64,000 nt of DNA from NCBI GenBank assembly GCA_963930775.1, contig OZ005692.1, positions 10,211,029 through 10,275,028 of the forward strand, written 5' to 3'. The position numbers were made by a program, and so were the translations under genes. Position 1 is the stretch's first letter, and each line of letters opens with the position of its first letter. Positions 740 through 54,907 of this stretch are shown here, piece after piece. The stretch comes from Cliona cf. orientalis (Eukaryota > Porifera > Demospongiae > Clionaida > Clionaidae). Below the pieces are notes generated by a model. It ran no database searches. It was not told the origin of the DNA and saw only the letters and a program-made list of their open reading frames with translations.

Positions 740-3476
740 GGTTGTTAAAGCCTCCAGTCCGTGGCTGAATGTCATTCTCCTTGTTGGTGTCATCATTCGA
801 CTTCCCTCTGCCCTGCTCGGCAGACTAGTTCTGTCTGCCCACGAATACAACTTTAACATTAGCATCTGCCATGTGAGCCAATGTGCACGTATATATTATA
901 TGACATTGTACTAATAATTATAGTGATTTCAATCACGTTATATATATTATACAGAATGTTTGCCAGGTGAAAATTTTGCCATCTGGTTTTTAGTAGCATT
1001 ATATAGTTATAGAACAGTGTGAGTTTTTCACTCAAGAGAGGGCAAATGCCTATATAGAGCCAAAATTCAAGGGGGGGGGGGGGGGGGGGGCAACCCCATA
1101 TTTTTGCTATGTTACTTCCATAGAAGATAAGAACTGTATATCATTTGCAGTTTAAAATGTGGTTATATTTCCTTGGTGAGGCAATCTTTCTGTCCACGCT
1201 GATTGTGAAGAACTGGAGAATCTATAGCATATTCAACAATAAATCCCTGAAGATAATTGTGAGTCATATGCATAGCATAATATACATGCACACCTTTGGA
1301 TATACCATAGTAACTATAGTATCGCACGGAGTTGATAAAATCTATAAGTGTAGGGATGACACAATAGCTACATAATAATAATTATTACTAAGCTTTCGTG
1401 TGTAGTATGATATTTTAGGAAAATACATTGAAATTCATCTAGGGCAACAAACTCACTGACAATCATCTGATGCTAACCATTCTTCTCCTTTCCCTACCAG
1501 CCGTCACCATTCTCATCGCTTCGTCCTATTATGAAAATCACTTTATGCACGTGACCATTGATGGACAAAACAAGGCAAGACTGAAGAGCAATAATATCAT
1601 TATACAAATCTTACATACTGTATCCGATCTAATTAACGCACCTCTCTAATAGATGCGCCACCTTGGCCTGAAGTGCAATTTTCACGCTCTATTTAAATGC
1701 GCCCACCCACGCGTCCCTATACTTTTGTGTACAAAGTTTGCGTGCCACCTGATCGCGAAGGATAATTTTCAAGCTTTAATGGCGCGCCACCCAGCACTCG
1801 TAATTAGTTTTTCATGGAGCGTTAATTAGATCGGATACGGTAATATTGTCTGTGTGTGCATGCGTGCATGCGTGCCTATGAGCAGGAGATGCATTCGATC
1901 AAAGATTTTCTTTCTTTGGTACATTGCTGGACCTGGGACTTTTTAACAGACAGCTATGATCCCAGTAGCGACTAATTAAGATTATAGTCGTACATGTAGG
2001 CTGCTTCTTCTGCATGTAAGACATCAGCATTTTCCAATATATATATATATATATATATATATGGAGTGATTGATGACCTTTACCAGAAAAGCACGCATTT
2101 TTCATATTAAAATTATTCTTTTTTTTATATACGTTGTATTAGATCAAATATCACATATTATACCAATGTATGTGTATATACCTCTCTATTTCTGCAGGAT
2201 ATACAAATTTCATTCTGCACTTCCGAAAGAGTAGAACAGCTCAAAATTGCTGCACTATTCTATTCGGCCACTCTCCTCATAATCTTATTCGTTCTCACCT
2301 TTCTCACTCTGCGAAGCACTGTGTCATTATCTGCTTTTCATCGCGAAGGTCGCCTCTCTTACGTTGCTTTGGCCATGACTCTCGTTCCCATACCATTTTT
2401 GACTGTTGTCCTGGCCATTGCAACGACAGAAGATGCGTTTGACGAAGATGTGATACATGTGCTTTTATTGTGGGTGGAGTTTGCTCTTGGAGTGCTGTTG
2501 CCAGCGCTTATCATGATGGCTCTCTTTCTACCCAATGTAAGCATAACCCTATTTAACCTTATTCCTGAGTCGAGATGCACTACCTCATAATATTATGCGT
2601 AATAATTGTATCTCAAAAATGCGCAATAACAAGGTACTGGAAATTAAATTTATGCATGCCACATGACCTATCTGTATAATCAGTTTCTGTCTATTTTAAA
2701 TTGATTTTTAGATCTATCTAGTGCTGATAAAGGAGCGTTTTGAGAGGAGATTCAGTGTCAAGAAGAAAGAGGTTGACTCACTGGCTTCCCAAGACCTCGG
2801 TAGTCGGTATCACACTCTCCAACAGCAGTCAGCTTCACTGAAACTGCAGCTATCTGAGGTATTGTAGCACTTTAATGGGTGTGGTTTGGGGTGGAGTTTG
2901 TTGATTCCCAGTTTGTGGGTGCAGTTGCGTACATCCATGATTTAAAATTATGTCTACTCAGTTTGTTACCTCTCTCTCTCTCTTTCCTAGGCTAATCAGC
3001 TCATAGCCAAACTCTTAGAGGAAAAAGATGCAAAACAAGATGACACGTCTCCCTTGACAACAGACTCCACCCATTCTGAATCAGAAACTAAAGATCCAGC
3101 ATCGTCAATTCACATCACCGTTTATGAGCAAACTAGTGAACATTCAACGCATCAAAGTGATAGAGAACTACATGTAAGTCCACAGGAGTCTAAGCTTACC
3201 CATACTGGGACGGCGACAAATTCCACTAATATTGATGATGCTGGAGATTCGGAACAGTGCCGTGGAACTGACACGGGCCTGTGCATAACTGTATCAGATT
3301 CTAGCAACTATAATTGTCCTGCCAACCAGCAAGAACTGAATGTAGATCGTGACGAAAACACTTGGGAACTTGAAGTTTTGGACAAAGGATCAACACTTGG
3401 TGATCCTACGTTGCATGTTGAAAATTCTGATAGGCATGAAGTGACTAATAGTGCTATTGAAGTCATTAACCCATAA
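740..3476 (+). CDS. GABA-B-like family C GPCR, 3' part (left-truncated)
   Basis: The last six exons of a family C receptor: 740-872, 1151-1258, 1443-1574, 2198-2536, 2712-2858 and 2991-3476. They match the last six exons of the downstream receptor in phase and nearly in length. Recognisable pieces are KASSPWLN (first intracellular loop), KNWRIYSIFNNKSLK (second loop), several hydrophobic spans, then a leucine-heptad stretch (SASLKLQLSEANQLIAKLL) like the GABA-B coiled coil, and an acidic, Ser/Thr-rich tail ending in TAA. The Venus-flytrap exons must lie left of the window. Intron 3 appears to start with GC rather than GT (AAG|GCAAGA at 1575). AATAAA at 3690-3695 is a candidate polyadenylation signal. 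Ligand unknown; sponge family C receptors are numerous, so GABA binding should not be assumed. Confidence 0.85.
1072..1090 (+). repeat. Poly-G run in intron
   Basis: An uninterrupted run of about 19 G lies in the first visible intron of the partial receptor, about 60 bases before the next exon. Confidence 0.9.
1616..1842. mobile_element. MITE with 23-bp terminal inverted repeats
   Basis: The left end TACTGTATCCGATCTAATTA is mirrored at the right end by TAATTAGATCGGATACGGTA, with one or two mismatches. The ~227-bp interior has no reading frame. It sits in the third visible intron of the partial GPCR gene. TA-rich ends suggest a Tc1/mariner-type non-autonomous element, which is inference. Confidence 0.8.
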
Positions 3477-4322
3477 ACAGTATAATATAATACATGTTGT
3501 CTGTCATTCCTAGTGCAATATTATTATTGTTGTGCAGATCTACAGCAATAATAGCACTTTTTATTTATTTTCATGCTTTGATGTACCTTGATCTACACGT
3601 CATGTGGCTGCTAAAAATTACGATGGGAATTATTATACATACAATTATTAATAATCTTATCCTGCAGCTGGCTGACTTCATAATGTAACAATAAATTTGG
3701 AATCCAAGATGTGGTTATTATTGTATGCAGCTGCCAACCACTAACAACGTCATCCATTGATGGGTGGATTAGAGACTAGACCAGAATTGTTAGCCTAGCT
3801 AACCATAAGCAAGTCGAACTTTGATAAAAATCTCCGTCAATTCCTTTAATGTGTTGATTAAAGGGCTAGTCTCTTCCACATCCATTACGGCTATTTGTAC
3901 CAGCTCTGTTTTGGCACATGTAAAAATGTGTTTATGGTTAGTAGAGATGGGTACAGACACCACAATAATTAATTGTCTGGTGCTTTTGTCATCATAATTA
4001 CGTACAATTCCGCTAGCGCTCATTCCACGAATTCGAAAAGGCCGCAAAATCACTGTAGTGGCAAAATAATTTGCTCGTGGGCTTGTATTGGGCACGTTTG
4101 TGGGTGCGAGCAGGCAGCCCCACCCCGTACCCACCAGCTAGGGTCAAGGGTCATGCGTAAATCGCGCGCGTATATAGAGCTAGAGAAAAAACCTAGCGTG
4201 GGCGATCGCTAGAGAGCGGTCAGGGAAGCGTGGGTGTTGATCCAAGCTCGATCGATAAAAGCAAACGGCCACAGAGTAGCAGAGCAGCGCGATCGTGTGC
4301 TTGAAAGATTGGCCGTGAAACT
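3477..4322. other. Intergenic region and promoter of the second receptor
   Basis: It separates the two tandem receptor genes. AATAAA at 3690-3695 would serve the upstream gene. GC content rises from about 4000 to 4322, just before the signal-peptide ATG at 4323, as expected of a promoter and 5' leader. No further gene is supported. Confidence 0.5.
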
Positions 4323-11684
<7,362 letters not shown>

Positions 11685-13010
11685 TAAAAGGACTGTCAGT
11701 AATTAATAATACAAAACGACTGATAATTAACAGGTATGTGTATAGCTGAATAATAATAATAATTTTTCCACACTGGTAATAACATTAATGATCATGAGTG
11801 AATAATATTATCATGCCCAAAACAAATAATTTAAAATTAATTTTAATAGCACACAATCATGATTCTCTCTCCTTAAGCCAATGTAACTATATTGACCTGC
11901 ATGAGTAACTGTTGCATTTAATTTAGAAGTTAACCATTCTGTGCATACGCATATTTCCATATGCACAATTCTTTTCCATGACAAGTGTTTGAGGATCAAC
12001 AGCTTGTGTGCTGATATCTATGGTGTTATAGTACACTTCTTGAGCTTTGAGTTCCCTTGATCCATCATTGTAAATACCCTTCACGGCAGTATTATAGTAA
12101 GCCTCTTCGATTTCTGGTTTATCATCATGCTTGCTACCCACAGTAGCATAGTAGACTTCTTTGATACCTCCATTAGTCAATTTGGGTCCATTATCACCTT
12201 TGCTCTTAACAGCGGGGTTGTCCCTCTTATTAGCTCTGATACAGCTGAGTACAACTAAAACTGTTAGCAACACAACAAAGAACAGCACTGAGCTCACAGG
12301 TAGAGTAGCGGCCAGCATCACAATAATTTTTTTGTCTATAATAATATTATAATTATAATAAGAGTATAATAATAAATATATTATAATTATGTTGACATAT
12401 GTGATTGTTCATTACATAGTATATATACAGCATTCGGCTGTACATAATTTATTATAGCTCTTACCCTTCTCTAGCAGTGGCCCATTTGATTCTGTAGAAT
12501 TGATCACTTCTCCAAAGTTGATGGATTCTGTGTAGTGTGAAGACTCTAGATCTGCATGTAATTTAAGTATTATTGTATGGAGTGATATATAGTTTGATTA
12601 CAGATGTACAATAGAAACTGCAGCATGAGACACTAATTTTAGAGAGGCTAATGAAACACTTTCATTATTACATATAGTACTATAGGTAGCAAGTTACTGA
12701 TAACAATATTTCTGTCAACAAAAACCTCGACAAAAACAGAGCATTAGCTGATCAATAGCACCAAGACTGCAATACAGTACACTCTTGGCAATACTATGGC
12801 GTAATAATATAATACTTACGTGTGCAAGGCAAATCCTCCTCTCCTTGTGCAGCTCTGTAGTATCCCTCGACACACATGCACTGAGCCAGTCCCTCTCTCT
12901 CACTCACACTGTTAGCGGGGCACGTTAAGCATGAGTTGTTGCTTGGAGATAAGTATGTACCAGCAGGACAAGCTGTGTAAATATAATAATTATTAATTTA
13001 GAATAATATA

Positions 13011-13389
13011 TAGTTGTAACAATCTGATTGGTCAGTTGGAGGTCCATTATTTCACTTAGAGATCTTTCAGTTCACTTATATAGACCTCTTAGAGAGGTAG
13101 GTCTATTATTATTATTGGGCTGCCAACGGCAAAGAAAGAGGCACAGTGCAACAGTAGCCTAGTCCCCATGCAGGCTAAATGTCATGGTTATAGTTGCTAT
13201 AATTATTCTAAATCAGTTAGAGACCTCATCCAATGGTCTCTACATCTTTATAAGAGACCCTCAGGCCCTTAGTAGCACCTTCATTTCGCTCGGGATCCCG
13301 GATGCTATAGACAGCTCTGGGCTTTTGGGTCTCTTAAATGCGTAGGGACCTTGGACTCGATTGGTCTCTAACTATCATTTATGTGAACG
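13011..13389. mobile_element. Inserted foldback-type repeat in intron 2
   Basis: The block is absent from the matching 127-base intron of the intact paralogue (17253-17379). It carries the phrase ATCTGATTGGTCAGTTGGAG, found again at about 47870 and 48008, and internal mirrored segments around AGAGACC/GGTCTCT. It is a repeat insertion; its exact ends are uncertain. Confidence 0.55.
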
Positions 13390-13469
13390 ATCACGCTCCT
13401 GATTCACACATGTGTGCACCATAATGCACACAACTGCTGTACACTGAATAGTAAAGTACAGAGAATCAT

Positions 13470-13890
13470 TATGTGACCTGCTCTGAGAAAAGGGACCACT
13501 TGGGATAAAATTTCATAGCTAAAATGTGGGGAAAATAAATATTTATCATTTTTCTGTATTTTAGTCCACCAGAAAATGTAGAATTTTGGTTTCATATTGA
13601 TATGCTATGTTTATGTAGTTGCTATATATGTAAACTATTGTAAAGGGTGCAAACAATTGCTCAGACACAAACCCAACTTAATACAAAATTTAATTAAATA
13701 TGTGCATTTTCTGAAAATGAATATATCTACCTGCATGTATAAAAATGGTCATAACTCCACTTGTGATCGATATTTTTTCATGAAACTTGCACCATTGGAT
13801 TCAGCACACATAAAGCTATCAATCCATGCTAAACACTCAGTTTTTATGAAATATCCTGAGTGGTCCCTTTTCTTAGAGCAGATCACATAT
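13470..13890. mobile_element. MITE with ~28-bp terminal inverted repeats
   Basis: The left end TGTGACCTGCTCTGAGAAAA then GGGACCACT mirrors the right end AGTGGTCCCTTTTCTTAGAG then CAGATCACA. The ~420-bp block is missing from the same intron of the intact paralogue, so insertion is direct by comparison. A degenerate relative lies at about 433-655. Confidence 0.85.
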
Positions 13891-13934
13891 TATATTATGC
13901 CTTACGTTTGCATGCTTCTGAATCATTAAATATT

Positions 13935-14348
13935 TACCCCGCGCTTACCCCGCGCGCATGCGCAAGGGGTAAAGCAATCGGTTTGTCCGTCTGTCGTTGT
14001 TGTCGTCGTCGGCACGAAAATCGCCATATCTCGAGTTCTAGGCGTCTGTGCGTGCTGTAAGCACAATCAATCGGTAGATATCGATGAAAAACTGGTTTGT
14101 ACGGGCTTCAAATTGCTCAAAAAGGCTTACTAGTGCTACAAATCGTGCATTTTCTGTACAGCATACCTGTGGTTTATTGACCACACCCACTCCTTTAGCA
14201 TGCTGCTGCAACTGCGCATGCTCAAGCTTAGAGTTGGAAAGGGTCGTCAGCTAATAAAACAGCTCTACCGCAGAGTGTTGCAGTACTATAACTACATACA
14301 CTACAGTGGCTACAGAGCGCGCGGGGTATGTGCTCTACAGAGCTCTAG
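13935..14348. mobile_element. MITE inserted in a coding exon
   Basis: The block interrupts exon 2 of the decayed Eph-like gene. The paralogue reads continuously through this point, while here homology stops at about 13934 and resumes at 14349. Ends are TACCCCGCGCGC (with a partial second copy) and GCGCGCGGGGTA, an inverted repeat. The ~410-bp interior has no coding capacity. Confidence 0.82.
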
Positions 14349-15289
14349 TTCCCTGAAGTTGCCTTGTATGCATTGACAGCCCACTTCCGGCCATGGTACA
14401 CTGTCCACCCAAACTCCATCAGCAGAGCAGGCAACTAAAGGAGCCAGTCCATTCTCTGGTTGAGCATTCTCTATACAAGTCACAGGAACAGAGATATTGG
14501 ATAAATCTTCATAGGGACTGGATGGACCTGCAATTGTCTCGGGATAATGAATCAGATTGATGGTTTGAGCTTCACAGACTTTGTAGAATACAACCAGTCT
14601 GGTGATGACAATGCAAGTAGTCTCATCTCGAATGGCAAAGTAGAAGGATGAGTGATTGGTATAAAAGTTTAAATCGATGGTTTCATTCACTCTAGCCCTA
14701 GTGGTGATATTTTGTTTCACCTGTACATGTCGATAGTGTATCACAGCTCTTCTCCCAGCAGTGTCCAGAGAGGATGTTTCATAAATATGAGTAGTGAAGG
14801 TTTGCGTGCAGTTCAAAGAGGCATCACATTCCCTCTGTTCAAACTCTATCGTCACGCTGACTTGAGATAGCCTTGTTCCATTCACTGTCCTGTTGATGAG
14901 CTGTGTGATCAGCCAGTTGTCCTGTGGACCAGCACTGAATCCACACACTTGGACAGACTGATGACATGGAGTGTTTGAAGCTTGAATCCACTGTAGATAT
15001 GGTACATAATAAGATATACAATAAAATTTATACCATATGAAACTTACATTGGTTGTTAATCCTAGATCATTATTGTCATCATTGTCCACGTGGTCCCACA
15101 CAGCTCCAGTGCGGGGAGGGAGAAGGTTCCAATAGTTCCAGCACCCTCATGTTGGTGGAGTAGGCTGGTGTTAGAGCATGCAGCTCCTTGAGCTCTTAGA
15201 TCTTTACACAGTGCTGCCTCCTCATCTCCTGGAGCCACACCAGCAGATACTGTCACAAGAACGAATGCTAATACCAGAGCTGAAAGCAT

Positions 15290-16182
15290 AGCTATACTTA
15301 TCAGCTTAAAGATGCTCAGCCAGTTATAGGGACACAAACAACACTATAGTCGTGTGCATAGATATCTTCCGAGTAATACCCGGTATAATAATATTATATT
15401 ACAGCACAGCATTCTAAATTGTGAGCCCCATGTGCATAAATCACTCATACTGGGAATCACCACATTGATGTCAGATACTGAACGGAGTGTCATGTGTAGT
15501 ACTATTATTTAATAATAATATTATGGAGTGGCATAAATCACACTGTCATAGTATACTCGGACTATAGGTCCTCAGATTGTTGTTAGTGGGAAACAGGAAA
15601 TAGGTGTTTATGACAGAAATTATTATCACAATAACAGGCAAAATGAGTGTACTATAGTATTATTAGATGTGGTTTCATTATGAGAGTAATATAAAAATTA
15701 TATTTGGCCTGTAATACCAGCATATTATAGCTACTTATTCAATAACAGTATCTTTTAATATCCCCTCACAATGTCATAATAATATTATTATCATAATGTG
15801 CATGCATAATATATACACACTAAATCACATGCACAGGAGTCAAGCTACGGTGGCTGAGAGGTATGGAAGCCGAGAGGGGCAATCCGCCGCAATCCGATAC
15901 CATCACCGATATCGTCGCCGCTACCATCACTGAGACATCCAAGCACGAAAATAATGCTATAGAAGTCTTGTATATAACTCCATAATGACAATACAAAATG
16001 ACTGACAATAATATTATTATAATTATGGACAGGTATATAGAATAATAATTTTGTTAAGCTGGTAATAACTTAAAAAGTTAATTTTCATGCCCAAAAAGTT
16101 AATAATAATACAGCACACAATCATGATTCTCTCTTTATTAAACCAATAAACTATGTTGGTCTGAGTATATAGAACTGTTGCA
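15290..16182. other. Intergenic region between Eph-like copies
   Basis: It matches 18360-19040 over several blocks (for example AGTGGGAAACAGGAAATAGG in both), so it is the upstream region duplicated with the gene. TTTATT at 16134-16139 is a minus-strand AATAAA for the intact neighbour, about 45 bases past its stop. No gene seen. Confidence 0.6.
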
Positions 16183-18356
16183 TTAGTTAACCATTCTGTG
16201 TGGTATACGAATATCTTTGTATGAACAATTTATCTCCATTTGAGGGTCAACAGCACATGTGCTGATACCTATAGTGCTATAGTACACCTCTTGACCATTG
16301 ATTTCCTTTGATCCATCATTGCAAATATCCTTCACGGCAGTATAGTAAGCCTCTTCAATTTCATTAGTCGCTTCTGGTTTATCATCTTGTTTGCTCTTCA
16401 CGGTAGCATAGTAAGCCTCTTCGATTTCTGGTAAATTGTCATGCTTGCTACCCACAGTAGCATAGTAGACTTCTTCGATAACTTTGTTGGTCAATTTGGG
16501 TCCATTATCACCTTTGCGCTTCACAGCGGGGTTGTCCCTCTTATTAGCTCTGATACAGCAGAGTACAACTAAAGCAGGTAACAACACAACACAGAACAGC
16601 ACCAAGCTCGCTGGTAGAGCAGCGGCCAGCAACACAATAAATTTTATGTCTATATAATAGAGTATGACATGTGTGATTAATCATTACATAGTGTACAGCA
16701 TTCAGCTGTACATTATTAATAGCTCTTACCGTTCTCTAGCAGTGGCCCATTTGATTCTGTAGAATTGATCGTTTCCCCAAAGTTGATGGTTTCTGTGTTG
16801 TGTGAAGACTCTAGATCTGCACGTAATTTAAGCATTATTGTACGGAGGAGAATTATAATTTGATTACAGATGTAGATCTACGATAGCAACTGCATGAGAC
16901 ACTAAATTTAATTTTAGAGAGGATAATTATCATGAAAAACACTTTCACTATTACATAATAATATAGGTGACAAGTTCCTGGCAACAACATTTCTGTCAAC
17001 AAAAACAGATCATTAGCCGATACATGTATCATAGCACCAAGACTGCAATGGTACAATATCATGCATCATTCTATAACGGTATGACGTAATTATACTTACG
17101 TGTGCAAGGCAAATCCTCCTCTCCTTGTCCAGCTCTGTGGTATCCCTCGAGGCATGTGCACTGAGCCAGTCCCTCCCTCTCACTCACACTGTTAGCGGGG
17201 CACGTTAAGCATGAGTTGTTGCTAGGAGATAAGTATGTACCAGCAGGACAAGCTGTGTAAATATAATAATTATTATTATGAATAATCACGCTCCTGATTC
17301 ACACATGCGTGCATCATATGCATGTACACTGAATAGTTCAGTACAGAGAATCTTCATTTTTCTAGTATATATGCCTTACGTTTGCATGTTTCTGAATCAT
17401 TAAATGTTTCCCTGAAGTAGCCTTGTATGCATTGACAACCCACTCCCGGCCATGGTACACTATCCATCCAAACTCCATCAGCAGAGCAGGCAACTAAAGG
17501 AGCCAGTCCATTCTCTGGTTGAGCATTCTCTATACAAGTCGCAGGAACGGAGATATTGGACAAATCTTCATAGGGACTGGATGGACCTGCAATTGTCTCG
17601 GGATAATGAATCAGATTGATGGTTTGAGCTTCACAGACTTTGTAGAATACAACCAGTCTGGTGATGACAATGCAAGTAGTCTCATCTCGAATGGCAAAGT
17701 AGAAGGATGAGTGATTGGTATAAAAGTTTAAATCGATGGTTTTAGCCCCAGTGGTGATATTTGATGAAATTTGTTTGACTTGTCGATAGAGTGTCACATT
17801 TCTTCTCCCTGCAGTGTCCAGAGAGAATGTCTCGTAAATGTGAGTATTGAAGATTTGCGTGGAGTTCAAAGAGGCATCACAGCCCCTCTGTTCAAACTCT
17901 ATTATCACGCTGACTTGAGGTAGCTTTATTCCATTCACTGTCCTGTTGATGAGCTGTGTGATCAGCCAGTTGTCCTGTGGACCAGCACTGAACCCACACA
18001 CTTGGACAGACTGATGACATGGAGTGTTTGAAGCTTGAATCCACTGTAGATATGGTATACATAACTTTAAAATACAATATAGCTATAGTTTACCATATGA
18101 AACTTACATTGGTTGTTAATCCTAGATCATTATTGTCATCATTGTCCACGTGGTCCCACACAGCTCCAGTGCGGGGAGGGAGAAGGTTTTGATAGTTCCA
18201 TGAGTCCATCAGCACCCTCATGTTGGTGGAGTAGGCTGGTGTTGGAGCAACTCCATGTGCTCTTAGGTGTTTACACAGTGCTGCCTCCTCATCTCCTGGA
18301 GCCACACCAGCAGATACTGTCACAAAAATGAATGCTAATACCAGAGCTGAAAACAT
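16183..18356 (-). CDS. Eph-like receptor without kinase, tyrosine-repeat tail
   Basis: Five exons (18108-18356, 17380-18043, 17100-17252, 16730-16816, 16183-16649) join in frame to 539 residues. A signal peptide (MFSALVLAFIFVTVSAG) is followed by an Eph-type ligand-binding domain: AVWDHVDNDDNND, VCGFSAGPQDNWLITQLINR, FYFAIRDETTC and HYPETIAG align with the vertebrate Eph domain. Then comes the sushi-like piece (CIENAQPE to CQCIQGYF) and the GCC2/GCC3 module (CPAGTYLSPS to GYHRAG to LPCT, about 305-355). A ~30-residue stalk and one span (about 390-413) lead to a ~125-residue tail with four repeats: EEVYYATV, EEAYYATV, EEAYYTAV, QEVYYSTI. The two fibronectin domains, kinase and SAM of true Eph receptors are absent. 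The tail looks like a docking array for SH2 proteins; two repeats fit the ITIM pattern. Ligand probably ephrin-like, by inference. Confidence 0.85.
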
Positions 18357-19112: not shown

Positions 19113-21008
19113 TCAATAAGCTATAGCTAATAACAGTGCTAGAAAATGAAGCAGATCTAGAGGTACTTTTGCCACTTGATGCAGACTCTGAGTTGAAGAT
19201 CGCTCTGTATACACGTATGCACAAGCAAAGACAGTGTTAACATAAAATCAATACCATAATAAAGTCATAAGTATAGTTAGAGTCCTATACAGTGGAACCC
19301 CTCTATTCCAGACACCCTTGGGATCGACGGCTTAGTGCCTTGATTAAAGGAGGTGTCCTCATTTCAGGGTTAGTTTTGTACACTGTTCTATTCTATGTAT
19401 AGCTGGGACCGTGCATGGTGTCTTGATTAAGGGAGATGTCCTCATTTCAGGAGTGCCCTTGTAGAAGGGATCCACTGTATTAATGATTGGTTGATGATAG
19501 CACATAATACAGCATGCTTTACCTGTGCATGGCAAGTCCTGCCCTCCTTGCTCTGATTCACCCCTTTGGTACCCTTCAATGCACATACACTGAGCCAGTC
19601 CTTCATCCTCACTGACACTGTTAGCCGGGCAGTCTGAGCACGAGCCACTGCTGGGTGACAGGTAGGTACCGATGGGACAGGCTGCATACGTGGATAATTA
19701 TTATTAAATAGATGAACATTGACTCAGAGGTGCCCTATATATAATATATTATTGTATACATTTCATGCCTATAGCTATAGCCTTGTCCCCATATCATGGA
19801 GGACCATTCCTACAGCTTTTTTAGTACTGCACGCTGAATCGCTTGAAATATATACTCCACGGGAACTGGCTTGGAATGAGGTTATGCAATTCATTTACAC
19901 AGAAAAAGAAATAGAATTAGCTATCAATTAAAGTATACATAGCTCAGCAGTAAAAGTAATGCATAAAATTTTAATAGCAGCTATACTGTAGCTATGTATG
20001 CACTTACGTGAGCATGTTTGGTTCTCTCTAAAGTAGCCTGGTAAACATTGACACCCTGCTCCCTGTATAACACTTCCCCAAATCCCTCCCACTGAACATC
20101 CTGATATCACAGGAGCTACACAGTTCTCTGGTCGTGCGTTCTCTACGCATGATGCAGAGATCTGGGGAATGTCTTCTCGAAAACTGGACTGAGAGCTAGC
20201 CATAGTCTCAGGATAACGAATAAGGTTGTCTATTTGAGCAGGACAGATAAGGGTGTAGAATACAATCAGTCTGGTGATGACAATGCAAGTAGTCTCATCT
20301 TGAATGGCAAAGTAGAAGGATGAGTGATTGGTATAAAAGTTTAAATCGATGGTTTCATTCACTCTAGCCCCAGTGGTGACATTTGATGAAATTCTTTGCA
20401 CCTGTTGATAGCGTTTCACATTTCTTCTCCCAGCAGCGTCCGGAGAGGATGTCTCATAAATGTGAGTATTGAAGGTTTGTGTGCAGTTCAAAGAGGCATC
20501 ACAGCCCGTCTGTTCAAACTCTATCGTCACACTGACTTGGGGTATCCTTGTTCCATTCACTGTCCTGTTGATGAGCTGTGTGATCAGCCAGTTGTCCTGT
20601 GGACCAGCACTGAATCCACACACTTGGACAAACTGTTGACATGCAACATTGGATTGCTGAATCCACTGCATATACATGGCATTTTTATTATTGCCAGGTG
20701 ATAATGCCTAGAAGATTAATGAAACTTACATTGGTTGTTAAACTTGGATCATTATTCATATCATTGTCCACCTGGTCCCACACCGCTCCAGTGCGGGTAG
20801 GAAGAAGGTTTTGATAGTTCCAGGAGTCCATCAGCACCCTCATGTTGGTGGAGTAGGCCGGTGTTGGAGCAGCTCCATTTGCTCTTATCTGTTCGCACAG
20901 TGTGTCCTTATCCCCTGGAGCCACACCAGCAGATGTAGCAATCACAGCAGCTACTGATACTAGTATCAGGGATTGAAACATAGCCACTGTAAATGTATCG
21001 CTCACCAT
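19113..21008 (-). CDS. Eph-like ectodomain with hydrophobic C-terminal anchor
   Basis: Four exons (20730-21008, 20008-20665, 19523-19681, 19113-19204) join in frame to 395 residues. The start at 21008 gives an N-terminal hydrophobic signal (LILVSVAAVIATSAG); a second ATG at 20981 would give a tighter signal peptide. The Eph ligand-binding domain (AVWDQVDNDMNND, VCGFSAGPQDNWLITQLINR, FYFAIQDETTC, RYPETMA), sushi-like segment and GCC2/GCC3 module (CPIGTYLSPS to LPCTG) match the two neighbours. The tyrosine-tail exons are missing. The only in-phase exon found downstream encodes a Ser-rich spacer and ends PLDLLHFLALLLAIAY-stop, resembling a GPI-attachment signal. It is either a GPI-anchored surface protein or, if that exon is wrong, a secreted ectodomain. 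The last exon is the least certain part. Confidence 0.72.
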
Positions 21009-42300: not shown

Positions 42301-44631
42301 TCCACATACATAGATCTGCTTCCTGTGCTAGGCAGTATAAAATGTGCACGTGTATAAATTTTGATAAGGCTATTTTGATACCAGCTGATCTGAATGGTTC
42401 AACACTAGATCAGGGGGTGGGTATGTTTTTTGTAAATATCCAGGCCACTGGTACACAGAAAGGGGGTGGCTAATACTACCAGTATATGATTTATGATTTA
42501 TCAGTCTCGAGTACAATGATAAGATACAAGCAGGGTAGCCTCGTGCCCAGGATTTCGAAGCTTCCAGATTTTCCAATCTTGGACGTCGTACTGAGAAGCT
42601 GGGAGGAACTTGGGGACGAACCCCAGCACAAACTGGCCTGGGGGGGGGGGGGGGGGGAGGGTGGACCTTTCAGTTGGTACTAGAATAGAAGGTGGAAGCA
42701 AGAATCTAGTCCCTCAGAGTATTAAAATCCTCGATAATTTGGACCTGATTAAATTTCGCTACGTTTCTCTGTGCTGCAGTGTGATATCTAGTATTCAGAC
42801 AAGAGTGGACACTCCGGAGCGTCTTAGGAGACACTTAGTCTAGGGTTTAGGACAGTCAGGCTCCGATTGTGTACTCTATAGCTCCTGATTGTGTCGTTCT
42901 ATTGCTTCATTGTGGCAGGCTACAATGAGGCGACAGTTAAACATTAGGTCTAGTTTACGGACACAATACGATTGAGACGCCATTGTCTAAGGCATATGTC
43001 TTCGTGAATCAGCCTTGTGTACCACATGTGTTTCCATTGTGGAATCAGTTGATACAACATGTATGTAGCATCGTCACCACTATATAGCTCCCTCGTCTCC
43101 AGGCCCATTCCCAGCTTTCCAATCCAACATTGGAATGGAGAATGGGCCTAAGATAATGGGGACGAGGCTAGTTTGAAATCTCAAGGCTAGTACACGTATA
43201 TAATATAGTAAGAATCTAGTGATTTTATCGATATGTATGTGTGTAAGTAAACGCTCAATTGTCTTCCTCAATCAAGACGGACAAGTGCACATGTATTGAT
43301 GATATTCTAGTTCAACAAAGTATGATTGTACAACCAACCATATCTATCTACACATCTGTTGAAGTCAGTGAACTGTTGCCCTTCTCAGCTCAGAGTTATT
43401 ATGGACTAAAAAGGAAACACTAGTGTACATTATGCACATCATAGCATACATACATGTAATTATGGTTATGTGGGCATATGGTGTAGGATCTACAGACATC
43501 CTCTGTGTGTGACCACTGTAACATCTGGTGCTATTGTGTGTAGGCATAACCATGTAGTTCTGGGTATATACCCCGGCAAAAATTACAGCTGAATGTCATA
43601 CAAAATGACATCGTTCTCAGTTGCTATCTGCATGAAACAAACAAACGAAGATTCTTTGTGGACGCCTGAGGATGACTAGAGCATCTAGTCAAAACGTCGG
43701 CAAGTTTTTACCAAACAGTTGAGTTGTCCACAAAGAATCTTTGCTTGTTTCATAAATGACATGCATGTAAAAAATTTGTGTTTTATATAATATTATTATA
43801 TTTCAATTGTGTGTCTCCTTTTGCAGATTATTTGTGTCCAATGTATCCCAATGCACAGTCATTAAATGACGATTCCAAATACTCGCAAATTTCAGACGAA
43901 CAACAACTGGTCTTAAATCGAGACGTTAATAACTACAATAACCCCTTAATTATTAACACTGATAATGATGACAATAATTTAAATCAGCTTCAAACGCTGC
44001 GGTCTCAATTAAACTTGGATGTCACAAGTTCCATAAAAGTAGTTCAAGCTAACTGTACGGTGGTTTCTTCGGACGATAAATGTCGTGCAAGTCGATTTGA
44101 AGCACTTTTGAACTTGGCGGACAGCTCCCTCTGCAGGTGTGAACCAGGAGCTATAGAGACACAGGTCGATAAATGTATGCAAGAGAGAAGAGACCAAGAA
44201 ATGATTGCCGAACATCAAAGGAAGTGGGAGGAGCTTGAGGCAGAGAAAGACCTTCCGACAGTCTTTGCGATCACGCCGACTTATGCAAGGATAACTCAAA
44301 AAGTTGACCTAACCAGTCTTTGTCAAACTGTTATGCACATACCGAATTTTGTGTGGATAATTATCGAAGACTCCGAAGAAAGAACTCCGCTAGTTACAAA
44401 ACTGTTGCAACGCTGTAAAGTGGAAAGTATTCATTTGAATGTTCGGACGCCTCAGAAGATGCGACCGAAACCAGGGCAGGAGAAAAACCCGAATTTGTTC
44501 TCTCGAGGGGTGGAGCAAAGGAATACTGGTTTGGAATGGATAAGACAGCGGTGCTCAAAGAGGAGGTGTAGGGGTGTGGTCTATTTTATGGATGATGATA
44601 ATAAGTACGACTTGAGGCTCTTTGAAGAGGT

Positions 44632-44672
<41 letters not shown>

Positions 44673-45655
44673 GAGAAGAGAGAAAAAGACAGAGAGAGAG
44701 ACTAAGATTACAAAATATTGTTGTGTTTACAGTGGCGCCATATGGCATCACTTAACTTAGTGTCCTTAAGCACAGAACACAAAGTGTCAGTACAAATTAT
44801 TTGACTGCATTTCTTGTTTTCGTACATGATATATAGATGAGGAAAACAGTGGGTGTGTCCGTGTTTCCCGTTGGATTCAGCGGTGGACTGAAGTTGGAAG
44901 GCCCACTCTGTGTCAACGGCACTGCCTCAAAGTGGCATGCAGCATGGGATCCGAACAGGTCAGAATTCACATTCCCATTCCAGATCTAGCATGACAATTA
45001 ATAAATTATTTTTGTGATTTGATCAGCACTACATGTATACTGAGCTCCCATAATATAATATTATTATAGATCCAGCATCTTCATACAATGACAAATACAT
45101 TACATTCATTCACACCCACCCCACCCCCCCCCCCCCCCCCCCCCCCCAAAAAAAAATTCTGATATTTAATTTCTCTTCTCTGCTATACGTAGACCATTTC
45201 CGATCGACATGGCTGGGTTCTCCATCAATGTCCAAAAGATCCTGGACAAGCCTGAAGTGAGAGTTGGACTGCTGGAGGATGGAAAACCAACAAAGAGAGG
45301 CTACCTAGAAACCTCGTTTCTTGAGAACTTCGCAACTAGGAAGACAGTGGAATGTAGAGGATTATCTAATGAGGTATGGAAACGCTATAATATACCGTAT
45401 AGCCACAAATATTGGCAGGAATTAAATTTGGCAATTGAGCCCCAAAATCGCTATTGCAAGAATATTAGCGGATTTAAATTTGGCGGTTCGGTACGGGATC
45501 GCCATACGTATAATACTATTATATGCAAGTAGGAAATTTTGGCGGATTTTAATTTTAATATAGACCACCAAACAGCCAAATTTTCCGGCTATACGCTATA
45601 TATTAGAGAGAGAGAACAGTAACATTACTGCATGTAGGAGATAATGGTATTGTAG
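42140..45655 (+). CDS. GT43 beta-1,3-glucuronyltransferase-like, C-terminus lost
   Basis: Exons 42140-42260, 43827-44629, 44837-44958, 45193-45373, and a short terminal exon ending TAG at 45653-45655. Exon 1 is a type II Golgi anchor (GTKLFLWTAALILTNLLTAV). A long acidic, Asn-rich stem leads to the GT43 fold: TPTYARITQKVDLTSLCQ, VEQRNTGLEWIRQRC, the metal-binding FMDDDNKYD (about 295-301), SVFPVGFSGG, PIDMAGFSIN, and the glutamate of LETSFLEN that corresponds to the catalytic base. Such enzymes transfer glucuronate from UDP-glucuronate to galactose in glycosaminoglycan linkers or HNK-1-type glycans. The conserved last exon (WH-K-TQ in the sisters) is absent: after ATA ATG GTA the sequence is TTG TAG, then a minisatellite. 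Activity is therefore doubtful. Confidence 0.8.
42269..42297 (+). repeat. (CA)n microsatellite
   Basis: About 14 CA units lie just inside intron 1 of the GT43 gene. A poly-G run follows at 42640-42658. Confidence 0.9.
43632..43753. repeat. Inverted repeat with conserved loop
   Basis: The arms are ATGAAACAA...GATTCTTTGTGGAC and GTCCACAAAGAATC...TTGTTTCAT. The ~60-base loop contains CTGAGGATGACTAGA and AAACGTCGGC. It lies in intron 1 of the first GT43 gene, about 75 bases before exon 2, and is probably a short mobile-element remnant. Confidence 0.6.
45122..45147 (+). repeat. Poly-C run before exon 4
   Basis: An interrupted run of about 26 C followed by A-run stands 45 bases upstream of the acceptor of GT43 exon 4. 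Confidence 0.85.
45390..45600. mobile_element. Imperfect inverted-repeat element
   Basis: The left ATACCGTATAGCC and right GGCTATACGCTAT frame ~200 bases with internal mirrored GGCAATT/AATTTGGC-type words. It lies just 3' of exon 4 of the first GT43 gene. The ends resemble those of 52154-52634, suggesting a related MITE family. Confidence 0.5.
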
Positions 45656-45731
45656 GTAATATTGGTAAAGTAAGTAAAATCGGTAATGTGGGTAAAGTGG
45701 GTAAAGTAAGGTAATAATATTATGAGTAAAT

Positions 45732-46155
45732 CAAGAGTAGATAATAAAGAGAGAGAGGGAGTGTCCAATGCACTATAATAATATTATGCTCCATACAACA
45801 TGTTTGCGTCGAGTAACATGACTTCCCACCTTGCGCACGTGATTAGCCCTAGAGGCTAAGTACTTGATTTATCGTAAGATTGCGAAGAATAGGGGGCGTT
45901 TTTTGTGAGCTTTGTGCTAGAATCTTCATGAACGCTCGCTTTATATTATTGTTATCTGGAGGGTTATCTGCTAGTGTTTTTAGTTGAAACTGCGCTTGCG
46001 TTAGCTTGTACTCAAGGCCACACCCACGACATACCATTTGAATTGAGCACTCTCATTGGTCAATTTTTGAATTCCTGGCGCATGACTTTCTGCAGACATC
46101 CTACACAGAGCATATAGCGCATTGGACACTCTCTTATTTCTATTATCTACTCTTG
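45732..46155. mobile_element. Inverted-repeat element inside the minisatellite
   Basis: The left arm CAAGAGTAGATAATA...AGTGTCCAATGCACTATA mirrors the right arm TATAGCGCATTGGACACT...TATTATCTACTCTTG, about 45 bp each. The interior has no coding signal. It splits the GTAAGT-type array. Confidence 0.75.
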
Positions 46156-46802
46156 GAGTAAAGTAAGTAAAATCAGTAATGTGGATAAAGTAAGTAAAAT
46201 TCGTAATAATAATATTATGAGTAAAGTTGAGTAAAGTTGGTAATGTGGGTAAAGTAATTATGAGTAAAAGTAAATAAAATCAGTAATGTGGGTAAAGTAA
46301 AGTAAGTAATAATGATAATATAAGTGAAGTTTCCCCATATGTTTGTATAGGGAAGCCATGCATTTGCAATGTTTTCGCCCACGCGCACATAGACTTGACG
46401 CCCTTTACCCAATTTGGCCAAAATTGGATTATAGGCAACCTGCTTGCATTGTATGGCTCTACTAAGCATACAGCTCAACTGTGTCGTGGGTTTTTTCTGC
46501 TTAGTGTGTGGTCTCCTTATAATAATATAAGTAAAAGTAAGTAAAATCGGTAATGTGGGTAAAGTAAGTAAAATCCATAATATGAGTAAAATAAGTAAAA
46601 TTGGTAATGTGGGTAAAGTGAATAAAATCCGTAATGTGGGTAAAGTAAGTAAAATATGAGTAAAAGTTAGTAAAATCCATAATATGAGTAAAGTAAGTAA
46701 AATCAGTAATGTGGGTAAAGTAAATAAAATTGGTAATATGAGTAAAATAAGTAAAATCGGTAAAGTAAGTAAAATCAGTAATGTACAATAATATTAGTGT
46801 GC

Positions 46803-46917
46803 TACATATAAAGTGTCATGTTTTATTAGATTAGTATAGGCAGTATAGGTAATTGTGGTCAGGTCAAAAAAGGGCATCTATAGATCTAGGGGAACAAAAC
46901 ATGACACTTTATAATAT
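46803..46917. mobile_element. Short inverted-repeat element
   Basis: The arms ATATAAAGTGTCATGTTTT and AAAACATGACACTTTATAAT bound ~75 bases. One arm recurs alone at about 47204-47222 at the other edge of the array. Confidence 0.65.
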
Positions 46918-47255
46918 TATGTAAGTAAAATTGGTAATGTGGGTAATGTAAGTAAAATTGGTAATACTATGAGTAAAGTAAGTAAAATCGGTAATGTGGG
47001 TAAAGTAAGTAAAATAATATTGGTAATGTGGATAAAGTGGGTAAAGTAAGTAAAATTGGTAATAATATGAGTAAAGTAAGTAATGTGGGTAAAGTAAGTA
47101 AAATAATTACTATTTTTTGGTAATATGAGTAAAGTAAGTAAAATTGGTAATGTGGGTAAAGTAAGTAAAATCGGTAATGTACAATAACATTAATATACTA
47201 CATATAAAGTGTCATGTTTTAATAATTATTATTAATCTCTCTCCCCCCCCCCCCC

Positions 47256-47257
<2 letters not shown>

Positions 47258-47299
<42 letters not shown>
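47258..47299 (+). repeat. (CA)n microsatellite
   Basis: About 20 CA units with a preceding C run close the minisatellite region. Confidence 0.9.
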
Positions 47300-47305
<6 letters not shown>

Positions 47306-47410
47306 GTAGATCTTGGTATGGCATGTAAAGACACAAAAACCCTTGACTATTTATGAAGGAAAGCACCCCTCAGATCCTCTATATGAATTTTAGTGCATAT
47401 CATTATGCTA

Positions 47411-47638
47411 TACCGTATTTCTTCTAAAAATTCGGCCCTTCTAGTTATTCGGCACCCTTTACCGAATGATTGAAAATAGTCTCTAATTTTCGGCAAAGGT
47501 CGTCCGGCATATATTATATGCTATAAACGGGAGTAGAATGCGCACGCAGACAGAATGTTGAATTTTAACCTCTAAAAATTCGGCGAAGCTAAAGCAATAT
47601 TATTATTTCCATGCCGAATTTTTAGAAGAAATACGGTA
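47411..47638. mobile_element. MITE family A, copy 1
   Basis: 228 bp bounded by TACCGTATTTCTTCTAAAAA and TTTTTAGAAGAAATACGGTA, a nearly perfect inverted repeat. Further mirrored words (TTCGGC/GCCGAA) extend the arms. A second copy in opposite orientation lies at 53105-53331. No coding capacity; flanking TA suggests TA target duplication. Confidence 0.88.
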
Positions 47639-48309
47639 ATATTATTATACAACGAATACAATGAAATATATTATTTTCAGATGATCATTGTCATTATTAT
47701 ACCTGGAGGGCATCACTGTGAATAATGCATGCATATTATTAGCTACATGCATTATCCCATGATCGTTACATCAAACATACTAAGTCTTGTAACCGTCCAA
47801 ACTTAGCAAAGCTGGCCACCCGGGGTGGTATCGTAGGGTATACGTAAAGTAGGTCAGGAATCTGATTGGTCAGTTGGAGGTCCACTATTTCACTTCGCCT
47901 TGCTCGGGATGCCACAGTCTCAGGCCTCTATACGACACCACAGTATTAAATTTTGTTGGGTATTGTAGGTATTGTAACAAGGTAAGGTATTTTAGGGTAA
48001 TATAGGTCAGCAATCTGATTGGTCAGTTGGAGATCCACTATTTCACTTCGCTTGGCACAGCCTCAGGCCTCGTAACCATAGTGACTGTAAGTAGGTGGCA
48101 ATTTTTGTTGCTACATGTACGTATATACGTCACATCGTTACCGCGCATTAATAATTATTTTAAAAAATGCGCCCCCCGGCCGGCCGGCCCCCCAATAGGT
48201 GGAGTTCGAGTGCGCTTTAATTGGAATAATACTCCTCTCGACAAGTTGTCTTTATCATGTTAGCGTCGCCTCGTCGTGAATGAAAGAAAGCAACAAGAAT
48301 TCGTCTACT

Positions 48310-49306
48310 ATGAACGGCTACGGGTGTCGGAAGTCGCTCTTCAACCCGCTACCGTGGCTGTTTCCGATCATCTTTATACTGATACTTACCTTCATGTTTA
48401 TCGTCTGGAACGGATCGACCAAAGGTATGATACGTGTATAAAAATAATTACGGCCAAGTGTGTAGCCTAGCCTTTACTGATAGTATAAGTTATTTGCTCA
48501 CTGTTGAGTCATTTATTTCTTTGTAGAAATTTTAACGAGCTTATTAAACTATGGGTGGGCCAAAGTTGAATCCGACTGATGCATTTAATTAGGCCACTTC
48601 AACTTAATACTCTGTTTCTCGGGCCCGACCGACCCTACTTTTAGAGAAAACTTTTGTTAGTTTTGAGGTCAGAGGTCGGATTTAATTACGTTCTGAGCAT
48701 GCGCAATAGGCTTTTGGAGCTAAAACTCGATTATTGACCTAGGACACGCCCAGTTAATTGAATTTATTTTCATTTACAAGCTGGCCTACCGACCCTATCC
48801 TGAGGAGAGGCCAGCCCGAGAAACAGAATATTAAATTGAAGTGGCCTTATGTGATTGTATAATGTTAAACTTGGATCGGCTCAAACTCACTTGGCTCATG
48901 ACCCACCTGACAGTGCCACACCTAGCTATACTATAGTAACAACATTTAAGGCATGATAGTAGGGCATAATTTGGGTGGAGACTGTGGCCACATCAAAGCT
49001 TATGGATTAGCACTATTCCCACATCAAAGGGAATTCTGAACTGAAGGCTTGTCGGGCCGACATGCATGCCTTGGGTATGCTGGGGAGAACACTGATACAT
49101 GTACATGTAGAGTGTCATGTACGTGTACATGTACATGTACTTGAGTAGGGTGAATTTTTATCATGCTTGAGATGTGATCACTAGCCCCATGCCCACTTGA
49201 CCCATGTACCCAAAAGCCTTTTGAGGGGTGGATCAAATTCCCAAAGAATTTAATATCGTGGACTACGGATTTTCTGTACACTATCGTGGGCTAGATACCT
49301 ACATGT

Positions 49307-49399
<93 letters not shown>

Positions 49400-50807
49400 G
49401 GAGAGCTCTACATGTACATGTACTGTGACTAGTTCCTGTGATGTCCATGCCTGAGAGCTTCACGCATCATATTTAGAAATGTACAAGTTGCCGTGCATGC
49501 TACAAGCAATGCAATCATCCAGGTTCCTTACATGTACATGTATATAGTCGGGTGTGTTGGAACTAACAGATCGTGTCAACATTCCTGTCTACAGACCTTG
49601 TATGTATGTTTGTTGGTAGTTGCTCAGCAACCAAAGTTTTTATAGGCAATTTGCTGGCTATGGGAAGGGGTTGGGTCATCATAAAGTAGCCCAATGATGA
49701 ACAGAGGTCAACTACCAACAAAATAGTTATCTGCCAGTAATAGGGGTGCATTCGACCATGCATCTCATGCACCCCAATTACTGGCAGATAACTATTATAT
49801 GTGTGTGTATGTGTAGAATAGTGTGTATTTATAAATTGTAAATTGCCTACTTACACATTATCATGTGTAGCAACCAAGCGTGTTATTAGCTATGAGATGA
49901 ATTCATTAATGTAGATGATCATAAATAGTCAGATACATGTAGCAAAAGAAAGTCATGGATAGTTAGTTAGCATAATACCATAGAATCCCGCGATTACGCC
50001 CCCCCCCCCCCCCTTTGTGCACGTTAGGATTGGGCAAAAGTGGGGAGGGGGCTTATACACGGGATCCTAACATTTCCGTGTGACGACCATTACCAACCGC
50101 AGAATATCACGTGGGCGCGCTATCTCTGTACTTTCTCTGGTTGTTTGGTGGGCAAAACTCGAGAAAAACGACAAAGTAAGGCATATTGTGACACAAATAG
50201 CTAGTTTGCTAGCTGTAGCTACTGTTTTTATTGACTTATGGACCCCATTTTACAGTCAGGGAGGGGGGCTTATACATGTACGCGAGACAAAACTACCTAT
50301 GCAAGAACTTGAGCTAAAAATGCAGGGGGGGGGGGCTTATGCGCGAGGGGGGGCGTAATCGCGGGATTCTACGGCAATATTATTGGACTGCACTCGACCA
50401 TGCAGCTCATGCACCACAACAATTTGTAACTGCTGCATGTGCCTTTGTTGGTAGTTGCCTAGCAACCAAAGTTTTTATAGACAATTTGCCGGCTATGGGA
50501 AGGGGTTGGGTCATCATAAAGTAGGCCAATGATGAACAGAGGTTAACTATCAACAAAATGGTTATCTGACAGTAATTGGGGTGCATGAGATGCATGAGAG
50601 AGAGAGAGAGTGAATTGCTTGAGTATCAAGAATTTATGGAATTGGTTGTGTGTATTAAACTAAGGAAGACAGTAGCCGGCAGTATGTCAATCTATTGTGA
50701 CACTGAAAGTTACAGCTATGTATCCAATTGTAAAGTGTAGTTAGTGAGTTATATCTGTGTGATAAATTAATGGGTGATGGAAGTACAGCTACTATTCTTC
50801 CCTCTCA

Positions 50808-50864
<57 letters not shown>

Positions 50865-54151: not shown

Positions 54152-54172
54152 CCCAGCAACAGCTAGCTTCTT

Positions 54173-54175
<3 letters not shown>

Positions 54176-54252
<77 letters not shown>
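54176..54252 (+). repeat. (CT)n microsatellite in 3' flank
   Basis: About 38 CT units begin some 25 bases after the stop codon of the complete GT43 gene, so they probably lie in its 3' UTR. Confidence 0.92.
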
Positions 54253-54258
<6 letters not shown>

Positions 54259-54698
54259 CCCCCCTCTTCCTCCTTTTACATGTACAAGCCGTCATATAAT
54301 ATTATTGCAACTGTTCTCTTTCGGAATATTTTGTGTGATATTATAAAGCAATATTCTACATAAGATGCATTGTGTTAATTATTTATTACATGTCCACTAT
54401 CACTAATATATATATATAATATATATTTTTGCCACTATGATTATGGTTATATGTGAGAAAAGGGACCATATCGCGCAAAACGCGATTATTTGCCATTTTT
54501 CAAACTGTAACCATTTCAAGGCCTCGCGAGCCCTAGGTTTCTGGCTTGGTTTGTTAGCAGTTTGGGCCTTCTACTTCACAGATCCAACATTAGAAGCCTG
54601 AGCAATCCTTCTGTCCAGAGCAGTGAGCCGCCAAATCAAGGCATAAAACGGCGATTTTCGAGCACATGTGCAATAATAGATCTAGTTCATAATAATAT

Positions 54699-54736
54699 TA
54701 TTATAGACTACGTAAACGTTTACGTAGTCTATAATA
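54699..54736. repeat. Perfect 38-bp palindrome
   Basis: The half-site TATTATAGACTACGTAAAC (from 54699) is followed with no spacer by its exact reverse complement. It lies ~170 bases upstream of the ATG of the next GT43 gene. Confidence 0.9.
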
Positions 54737-54907
54737 TGATATATACCAGTGCAGTCTAGTCATGCATGTGACGTTATTTTTATGCATGCGCAATATGCTC
54801 CGGGATATGGATCCGGGCGTGGTCAAATTCGTGCCGGCCTCGTCCCCAGTCTCCGCGTTGGGAAGGGCCTGGAGATGAGGCCAAGATCCACATAGCTATA
54901 AGCTGAG

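Follow-up and report, generated by a model that had tools for sequence, protein, structure and literature searches.

Eph receptors, among them EphA, EphB and the sponge Ephs of Krishnan 2019, carry a ligand-binding domain (LBD), a cysteine-rich domain (CRD) and a GCC2 module, in that order. For sponges, the available part of Krishnan 2019 (PMC6485061) gives 100 Eph-LBD sequences, of which 15 are full length and the others include fragmentary or partial models. Kinase-dead Ephs and kinase-less splice forms have been described as well (Arcas 2020, PMC6993872, available part). We found no description of kinase-less Eph genes in the accessible portions of PMC10176882, PMC8662651, PMC8242945 and PMC9798719, and a literature search, mostly outside subscription papers and supplements, found no publication on a kinase-less Eph receptor with a tyrosine tail. 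Here we describe a sponge gene (gene 2) whose ectodomain modules stand in the same order as those of the Eph receptors; in contrast to them, it has no fibronectin domains, kinase or SAM domain, and it ends in a tyrosine tail of its own.

Results

Gene model and ectodomain

Gene 2 lies on the minus strand at 18356-16183 of the window (the whole stretch of DNA that was analysed, 64,000 nucleotides), and its spliced model has five exons and encodes 539 aa. All junctions are GT-AG, those downstream of exon 2 are phase 1, and the 539 codons are free of stops. The domain order is leader, Eph LBD, Eph cysteine-rich domain, GCC2/GCC3-like module, one span and tail, distributed as follows:

18108..18356, minus strand: exon 1, signal peptide and LBD start (start ATG, donor GTAAGT, hydrophobic leader by eye)
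17380..18043, minus strand: exon 2, most of the Eph LBD and the sushi-like Ephrin_CRD (Pfam over cut-off; best Foldseek and VIA-align rows are Eph ectodomains)
17100..17252, minus strand: exon 3, EGF-like module of GCC2/GCC3 (Ephrin_rec_like) type with PCT at its end (within the EphA2 phmmer alignment; Pfam sub-threshold)
16730..16816, minus strand: exon 4, short stalk (flanked by phase-1 GT-AG junctions)
16183..16649, minus strand: exon 5, transmembrane span, cytoplasmic tail and stop codon (frame open to the stop)
16186..16551, minus strand: cytoplasmic tail, 122 residues (spliced model)
16134..16139, minus strand: AATAAA polyadenylation-like signal about 45 nt past the stop (sequence)

In Pfam searches, Ephrin_lbd scored 36.4 bits and Ephrin_CRD 29.2 bits, each against a cut-off of 27, and Ephrin_rec_like (GCC2/GCC3) was sub-threshold (17.9 vs 23.1); no fn3, kinase or SAM family matched the gene 2 model at E <= 1. 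The best phmmer match among PDB chains was the human EphA2 ectodomain (E = 7.5e-27), in an alignment that covers the LBD and the cysteine-rich region up to the last PCT of gene 2. The AlphaFold model, built for exon 2 only (221 of the 539 residues), is of moderate quality, with a mean pLDDT of 69.6 and residues 1-23 below 50. With this model, the best Foldseek match was EphA2 8tv5 (E = 8.6e-12, TMq 0.64) and all 50 matches listed were Eph entries; the best VIA-align rows were also Eph ectodomains, and the last of its 50 rows was a non-Eph enzyme. Hence, the ectodomain of gene 2 is of Eph type, by sequence and fold. A preliminary description of this DNA had proposed a kinase-less Eph-type receptor at 16183-18356 with one span and a cytoplasmic part of about 125 residues, and had asked for a comparison with Eph structures; the five-exon model, Pfam, phmmer and Foldseek bear the receptor out, and its tail comes to 122 residues.

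One feature of the LBD departs from the Eph pattern. In the alignment, gene 2 has Ser in place of an LBD Cys kept by the other 11 rows of its 12-row clade. By our reading of the alignment, the missing residue is probably a member of the C105-C115 disulphide pair, which the available part of Krishnan 2019 (PMC6485061) calls invariant. With one Cys changed to Ser, gene 2 would lack one of the two LBD disulphides of Eph receptors, and this counts against it as a normal ephrin binder.

Gene 2 is flanked by two paralogues:

about 11923..15289, minus strand: gene 1, tandem paralogue with a three-YY-motif tail of the gene 2 kind (sequence comparison)
19524..20981, minus strand: gene 3, tandem paralogue with signal peptide, LBD, CRD and GCC2 module (sequence comparison)

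Exon 1 of gene 1 is broken by frame-changing indels and its exon 2 by an insertion of roughly 0.4 kb; gene 1 is likely a pseudogene. Neither a span nor a tail homologous to that of gene 2 was found between gene 3 and gene 2, where the hydrophobic ORFs are unrelated.

The rest of the window holds other gene families. On the minus strand, 21404-41711 contains a tandem family of large span-rich proteins, about four copies by eye and some of them split, and one span-rich ORF of 1378 aa there matches the Pfam Chlamydia PMP repeat. A glycosyltransferase family 43 gene array occupies 43760-61444 on the plus strand (Pfam E 8.5e-32 for one ORF, others by eye). At 2111-11684, plus strand, two gene copies with span-rich ORFs look by eye like class C (GABA-B type) receptors; three short ORFs of these genes gave no Pfam match.

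Tyrosine motifs of the gene 2 tail

The cytoplasmic tail carries four doubled-tyrosine (YY) motifs, three of them within a tandem repeat:

16453..16476, minus strand: motif 1, EEVYYATV, second Tyr fits the strict ITIM (sequence)
16399..16422, minus strand: motif 2, EEAYYATV, ITIM-like, Ala at -2 (sequence)
16333..16356, minus strand: motif 3, EEAYYTAV, ITIM-like, Ala at -2 (sequence)
16270..16293, minus strand: motif 4, QEVYYSTI, second Tyr fits the strict ITIM (sequence)
16306..16479, minus strand: degenerate tandem repeat with motifs 1-3, three 54-nt copies at spacings of 66 and 54 nt

All four motifs had been named in the preliminary description, and their presence and coordinates were confirmed; they are spaced by 18, 22 and 21 residues. 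The strict ITIM pattern is [SIVL]xYxx[ILV], and acidic residues ahead of tyrosines suit Src-type kinases. Only motifs 1 and 4 fit this ITIM pattern strictly; motifs 2 and 3 have Ala at -2. The YxxPhi endocytosis pattern also fits all four YY motifs. Relative to shuffled tails, strict ITIMs number 2 vs 0.34 expected (P = 0.044) and YxxPhi sites 5 vs 1.67 expected (P = 0.0086), P values that overstate the evidence since the motifs are repeats of one unit. We also tried an ITAM reading (paired Yxx[LI] with 6-12 residues between) and found no match in gene 2 or in any of the 8 tails counted.

Eph-LBD loci across the genome

We surveyed the assembly to which the window belongs (216.8 Mb, 149 contigs) with a profile search, which scored 25 candidates and placed at least 17 Ephrin_lbd loci over the cut-off. 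One of the 17 has an Eph kinase downstream, 10 have a span and a kinase-free tail, 1 is broken (gene 1) and 5 were left unclassified (gene 3, C4_10077k, C4_10112k, C8_4850k and C8_5472k). The tail is kinase-free at 10 of the 12 Eph-LBD loci with classifiable ends, on the basis of 5 complete models and 5 partial models or ORFs. The complete kinase-less models are gene 2 (539 aa), C4_10123k (576 aa), C2_2931k (552 aa), C1_652k (560 aa) and C8_5486k (549 aa). Hence, the evidence supports a kinase-less Eph ectodomain with a span and a tail as a design that this genome uses repeatedly and not as an isolated oddity of gene 2.

The unclassified loci differ from one another. C4_10077k was not counted as a further kinase-less member, its span and tail pieces having no in-frame GT-AG junction; C4_10112k has a span and short tail downstream with other modules intervening; C8_4850k has a long modular ectodomain whose end was not found; and the LBD match of C8_5472k contains an in-frame stop. 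Six more Eph-LBD matches, below the cut-off, lie at C6:10.69-10.78 Mb and C17:7.46 Mb, which suggests that a larger family of divergent LBD receptors may exist. Among prokaryote contigs, 40 pattern matches were followed for relatives and none was confirmed.

Three kinds of tail occur besides that of gene 2. The tail of C4_10123k is long and different from the others, with YVNI and an SH3-type RPLPLLP motif; it has no ITIM and a YxN site that chance could explain (P = 0.34), and it has 4 YxxPhi sites vs 1.20 expected (P = 0.016). At two C6 loci (known as ORFs) and at C17_7466k (partial model), fn3 is combined with a very short tail that carries no kinase. Five loci on three contigs (C2_2931k, C1_652k, C8_5486k, C1_696k and C8_5663k) share a homologous tail, the other four tails having 65-82% identity to that of C2_2931k. 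The first three of these loci have the five-exon plan of gene 2 plus one fibronectin domain, with a tail of the type AYYSTI..AYEEV..AYG; C1_696k (first exon not found in the sequence read) and C8_5663k (middle unread) are LBD ORFs with the homologous tail downstream. By tblastn, a single fibronectin domain is present at 4 kinase-less loci other than gene 2, and in C2_2931k it is sub-threshold in Pfam.

In the five shared tails, Tyr is found in three or more rows at 5 columns, all of them invariant; at a sixth column only two rows have Tyr. Of the columns adjacent to Tyr, 12 of 16 are invariant, vs 17 of 48 among the remaining columns (Fisher P = 0.0066). All 5 tails contain a single strict ITIM, which taken alone is not above chance (P 0.13-0.21). 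With hhalign, gene 2 and the five-tail family aligned over 15 residues of the span and over none of the tail (probability 44%, E 0.00023). Local alignments between the gene 2 tail and 4 members of the five-tail family gave P values of 0.009, 0.018, 0.043 and 0.126; across 10 tests of the gene 1 and gene 2 tails against these 4 tails and the C4_10077k tail, P was 0.0025-0.126, and the C4_10077k tail against the same 4 family tails gave 0.002-0.10. These alignments do no more than suggest that the gene 2 tail shares its origin with those of the five-tail family.

The tail patterns bear on whether the YY motifs may serve trafficking instead of signalling. As YxxPhi signals they would recruit clathrin adaptors, and the protein would act in ligand clearance or adhesion without phosphotyrosine signalling; all four gene 2 motifs have this form, and YxxPhi exceeds the shuffles in both the gene 2 and the C4_10123k tails. 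However, a YxxPhi signal requires neither acidic residues ahead nor a doubled tyrosine, and the third invariant site of the shared tails (AYG..) is YxxPhi in 0 of 5, so we consider an endocytic or adhesion receptor unlikely.

Kinase searches

The one locus shown to have a kinase, C8_5520k, is a canonical-looking Eph with LBD, CRD, GCC2, fn3, span and Eph kinase on one strand within 18 kb, an order that rests on ORFs and not on one spliced model. The best PDB matches of its kinase are EphB1. In a tree of exon 2 (16 rows, C8_5472k left out), C8_5520k falls in a six-row clade with the shared-tail loci (96/100), and the forks that place it inside them are weak (86/89, 86/77).

Splicing of the ectodomain to a kinase exon elsewhere had been set beforehand as the observation that would speak against a kinase-less receptor; using tblastn and a juxtamembrane search, we found no local Eph kinase exon. 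In window 1-21300, Eph kinase queries had no match on either strand (tblastn, E <= 0.1). An Eph juxtamembrane query, which is blind to divergent juxtamembrane regions, matched the whole genome only at C8:5537k and C8:1177k. Since genome kinase surveys scored few of their candidates (PF07714, 119 of 2511; Eph kinase query, 150 of 1525), we relied on the juxtamembrane search and on tblastn of nine 20-kb neighbourhoods and the window. At C1_652k and C1_696k, kinase matches of 24-30% identity lie 13-19 kb along on the opposite strand, and near the C17 LBD a kinase match contains stops and is also on the opposite strand. Downstream reach was only 3.5-4 kb at C8_5663k, C8_5472k, the two C6 loci and C17, where a kinase farther away is excluded by the Eph-kinase survey (150 of 1525 scored) and the juxtamembrane search alone.

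Some transcripts may nevertheless join the ectodomain to a distant kinase exon, and the gene 2 tail would then be an alternative short form of an ordinary Eph. Because the junctions downstream of exon 2 are phase 1, the gene 2 exons could be swapped, and elsewhere, on C8, a distance of about 36 kb separates the C8_5486k tail from the Eph kinase exons that follow it on the same strand. However, the juxtamembrane search, tblastn and the matches listed in the kinase survey place no Eph kinase near C4:10.2 Mb, and gene 2 carries its own stop and AATAAA. Hence, splicing to a kinase is highly improbable for gene 2.

Two further kinase regions were seen. A second Eph-kinase exon cluster at C8:1175736-1184289 has 68-76% identity to the C8:5537k kinase query, and no LBD was found near it (C8:1.175-1.184 Mb) at E <= 10 among the matches listed. 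At C17:2316562-2325288, minus strand, an open frame of 2925 codons contains ten tyrosine-kinase matches and an SH2 match.

Selection

We tested constraint on ectodomain exon 2 in six pairs. Among shared-tail loci, constraint was significant for C2_2931k vs C8_5486k (dN 0.108, dS 0.303, P = 1.4e-5), C8_5486k vs C1_652k (P = 0.00019) and C2_2931k vs C1_652k (P = 0.02). For gene 2, P was 1.3e-8 vs C4_10123k, 5.2e-6 vs gene 3 and 0.12 (not significant) vs gene 1. The two deepest of the six pairs may include time before kinase loss. Hence, the kinase-less loci show purifying selection on ectodomain exon 2 when compared with one another. For the tail, dN/dS was 0.68-0.93 between gene 1 and gene 2, by region and method, and 0.67-1.60 in the cytoplasmic part of the five-tail family (10 pairs); values near 1 indicate that most tail residues are free to change.

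The little constraint between gene 1 and gene 2, together with the lost LBD Cys and the broken state of the adjoining gene 1, would fit a gene 2 that is a young pseudogene, or nearly so, with a frame intact by chance survival. We regard this as improbable in view of the 539 open codons, the five canonical exons, the poly(A)-like signal and the constraint relative to gene 3, though the latter spans time before the gene 1/gene 2 split. Moreover, the design persists at other loci whatever the fate of gene 2.

The main rival to a signalling tail is a decoy or dominant-negative co-receptor, whose ectodomain would cluster with a kinase-bearing Eph or compete for its ligand and so damp signalling, the tail being mostly filler or a trafficking signal. 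Kinase-bearing C8_5520k is nested in a clade of five kinase-less fn3-type loci, and could therefore share ligands and co-cluster with them. According to the available part of PMC7717530, EphA7-T1, a truncated splice form of mammals, binds full-length EphA7 and lowers EphA7 phosphorylation, and the tail dN/dS near 1 also suits a decoy. In contrast, the five-tail family conserves both its tyrosines and the residues beside them, C4_10123k has a different long tail, a multi-tyrosine tail is superfluous for a pure decoy, and gene 2 stands far from the kinase locus, with 54% exon 2 identity. We hold the decoy to be possible and somewhat doubtful.

Possible SH2 partners and ephrin search

The genome has 103 SH2 matches, and several share one open frame with a kinase match (e.g. 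C12:707-708 kb). A gene at C8:9.936 Mb is of SHP-2 type, combining a pair of SH2 matches with a phosphatase domain. The second of its SH2 ORFs matches human SHP-2 (4.4e-62); its phosphatase ORF has LAR as the top match (9.8e-51), with SHP-2 further down at about 1e-35. Of the preliminary proposal that the receptor signals via partner kinases and SH2 proteins, what stands is that the route is possible, such genes, including the SHP-2-type phosphatase, being present. On the ligand side, no ephrin (PF00812) was found over the cut-off in the genome (best E 0.51) in a profile search run exon by exon, from which introns may hide one.

Discussion

We propose that gene 2 is a phosphotyrosine docking receptor of kinase-less Eph type, with a probability of about 0.5. 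Exons with phase-1 borders link the Eph ectodomain to the span and the 122-residue tail. On homology, the ectodomain may sense a ligand, either an ephrin or a relative, that a neighbouring cell displays. In clustered protein, the YY motifs could then be phosphorylated by a Src-type non-receptor kinase or by a kinase-bearing Eph in the cluster, and SH2 proteins would dock onto the phosphotyrosines, the likeliest being a SHP-2-type phosphatase at the ITIM-like sites. This second half of the mechanism (tail phosphorylation and SH2 docking) draws on motif and conservation, and the sign of the signal is one that we infer. The preliminary suggestion that a docking tail replaces the kinase thus keeps its structural part, namely the Eph ectodomain, the missing kinase and the tyrosine tail, and is weakened by the tail dN/dS near 1, the YxxPhi alternative and the lost LBD Cys.

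More tentatively, the Eph ectodomain in this animal may be mainly a recognition cassette for docking receptors, with the kinase-bearing Eph one branch among them. Phase-1-bordered exons would couple the ectodomain to YY-repeat tails, to AYYSTI/ITIM tails, to a tail with YVNI and an SH3-type ligand, and to minimal tails. If so, Eph signalling via partner kinases and SHP-2 would be an early-branching alternative to the receptor tyrosine kinase, with the logic of immune inhibitory receptors.

In at least one sponge genome, then, a contiguous assembly has several kinase-less LBD genes that are complete as they stand. This changes the counting of Eph repertoires of early animals, and the family offers a testable case of receptors that swap their own kinase for a docking tail.

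Besides the Eph receptors themselves, four described systems come closest. Partial sponge Eph models and a Salpingoeca urceolata Eph-LBD protein have an LBD without a kinase, as gene 2 does; the available part of Krishnan 2019 (PMC6485061) presents fragmentary or partial models and an S. urceolata fragment, whereas here five kinase-less models are complete in a contiguous assembly. EphB6 and EphA10 share with gene 2 an Eph ectodomain and no kinase activity of their own, but they keep a kinase domain in which catalytic residues are missing (PMC6993872, available part), and gene 2 has no such domain. EphA7-T1, like gene 2, is an Eph ectodomain with a span and without a kinase; it arises from a kinase gene by splicing and ends in 11 residues unique to it (PMC7717530, available part), whereas gene 2 stands as a gene of its own, and its multi-tyrosine tail is 122 residues long. 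Like gene 2, the ITIM inhibitory receptors of the immune system have [SIVL]xYxx[ILV] sites spaced along a short tail and carry no enzyme; gene 2 differs from them in having no immunoglobulin ectodomain and in that only 2 of its 4 motifs are strict.
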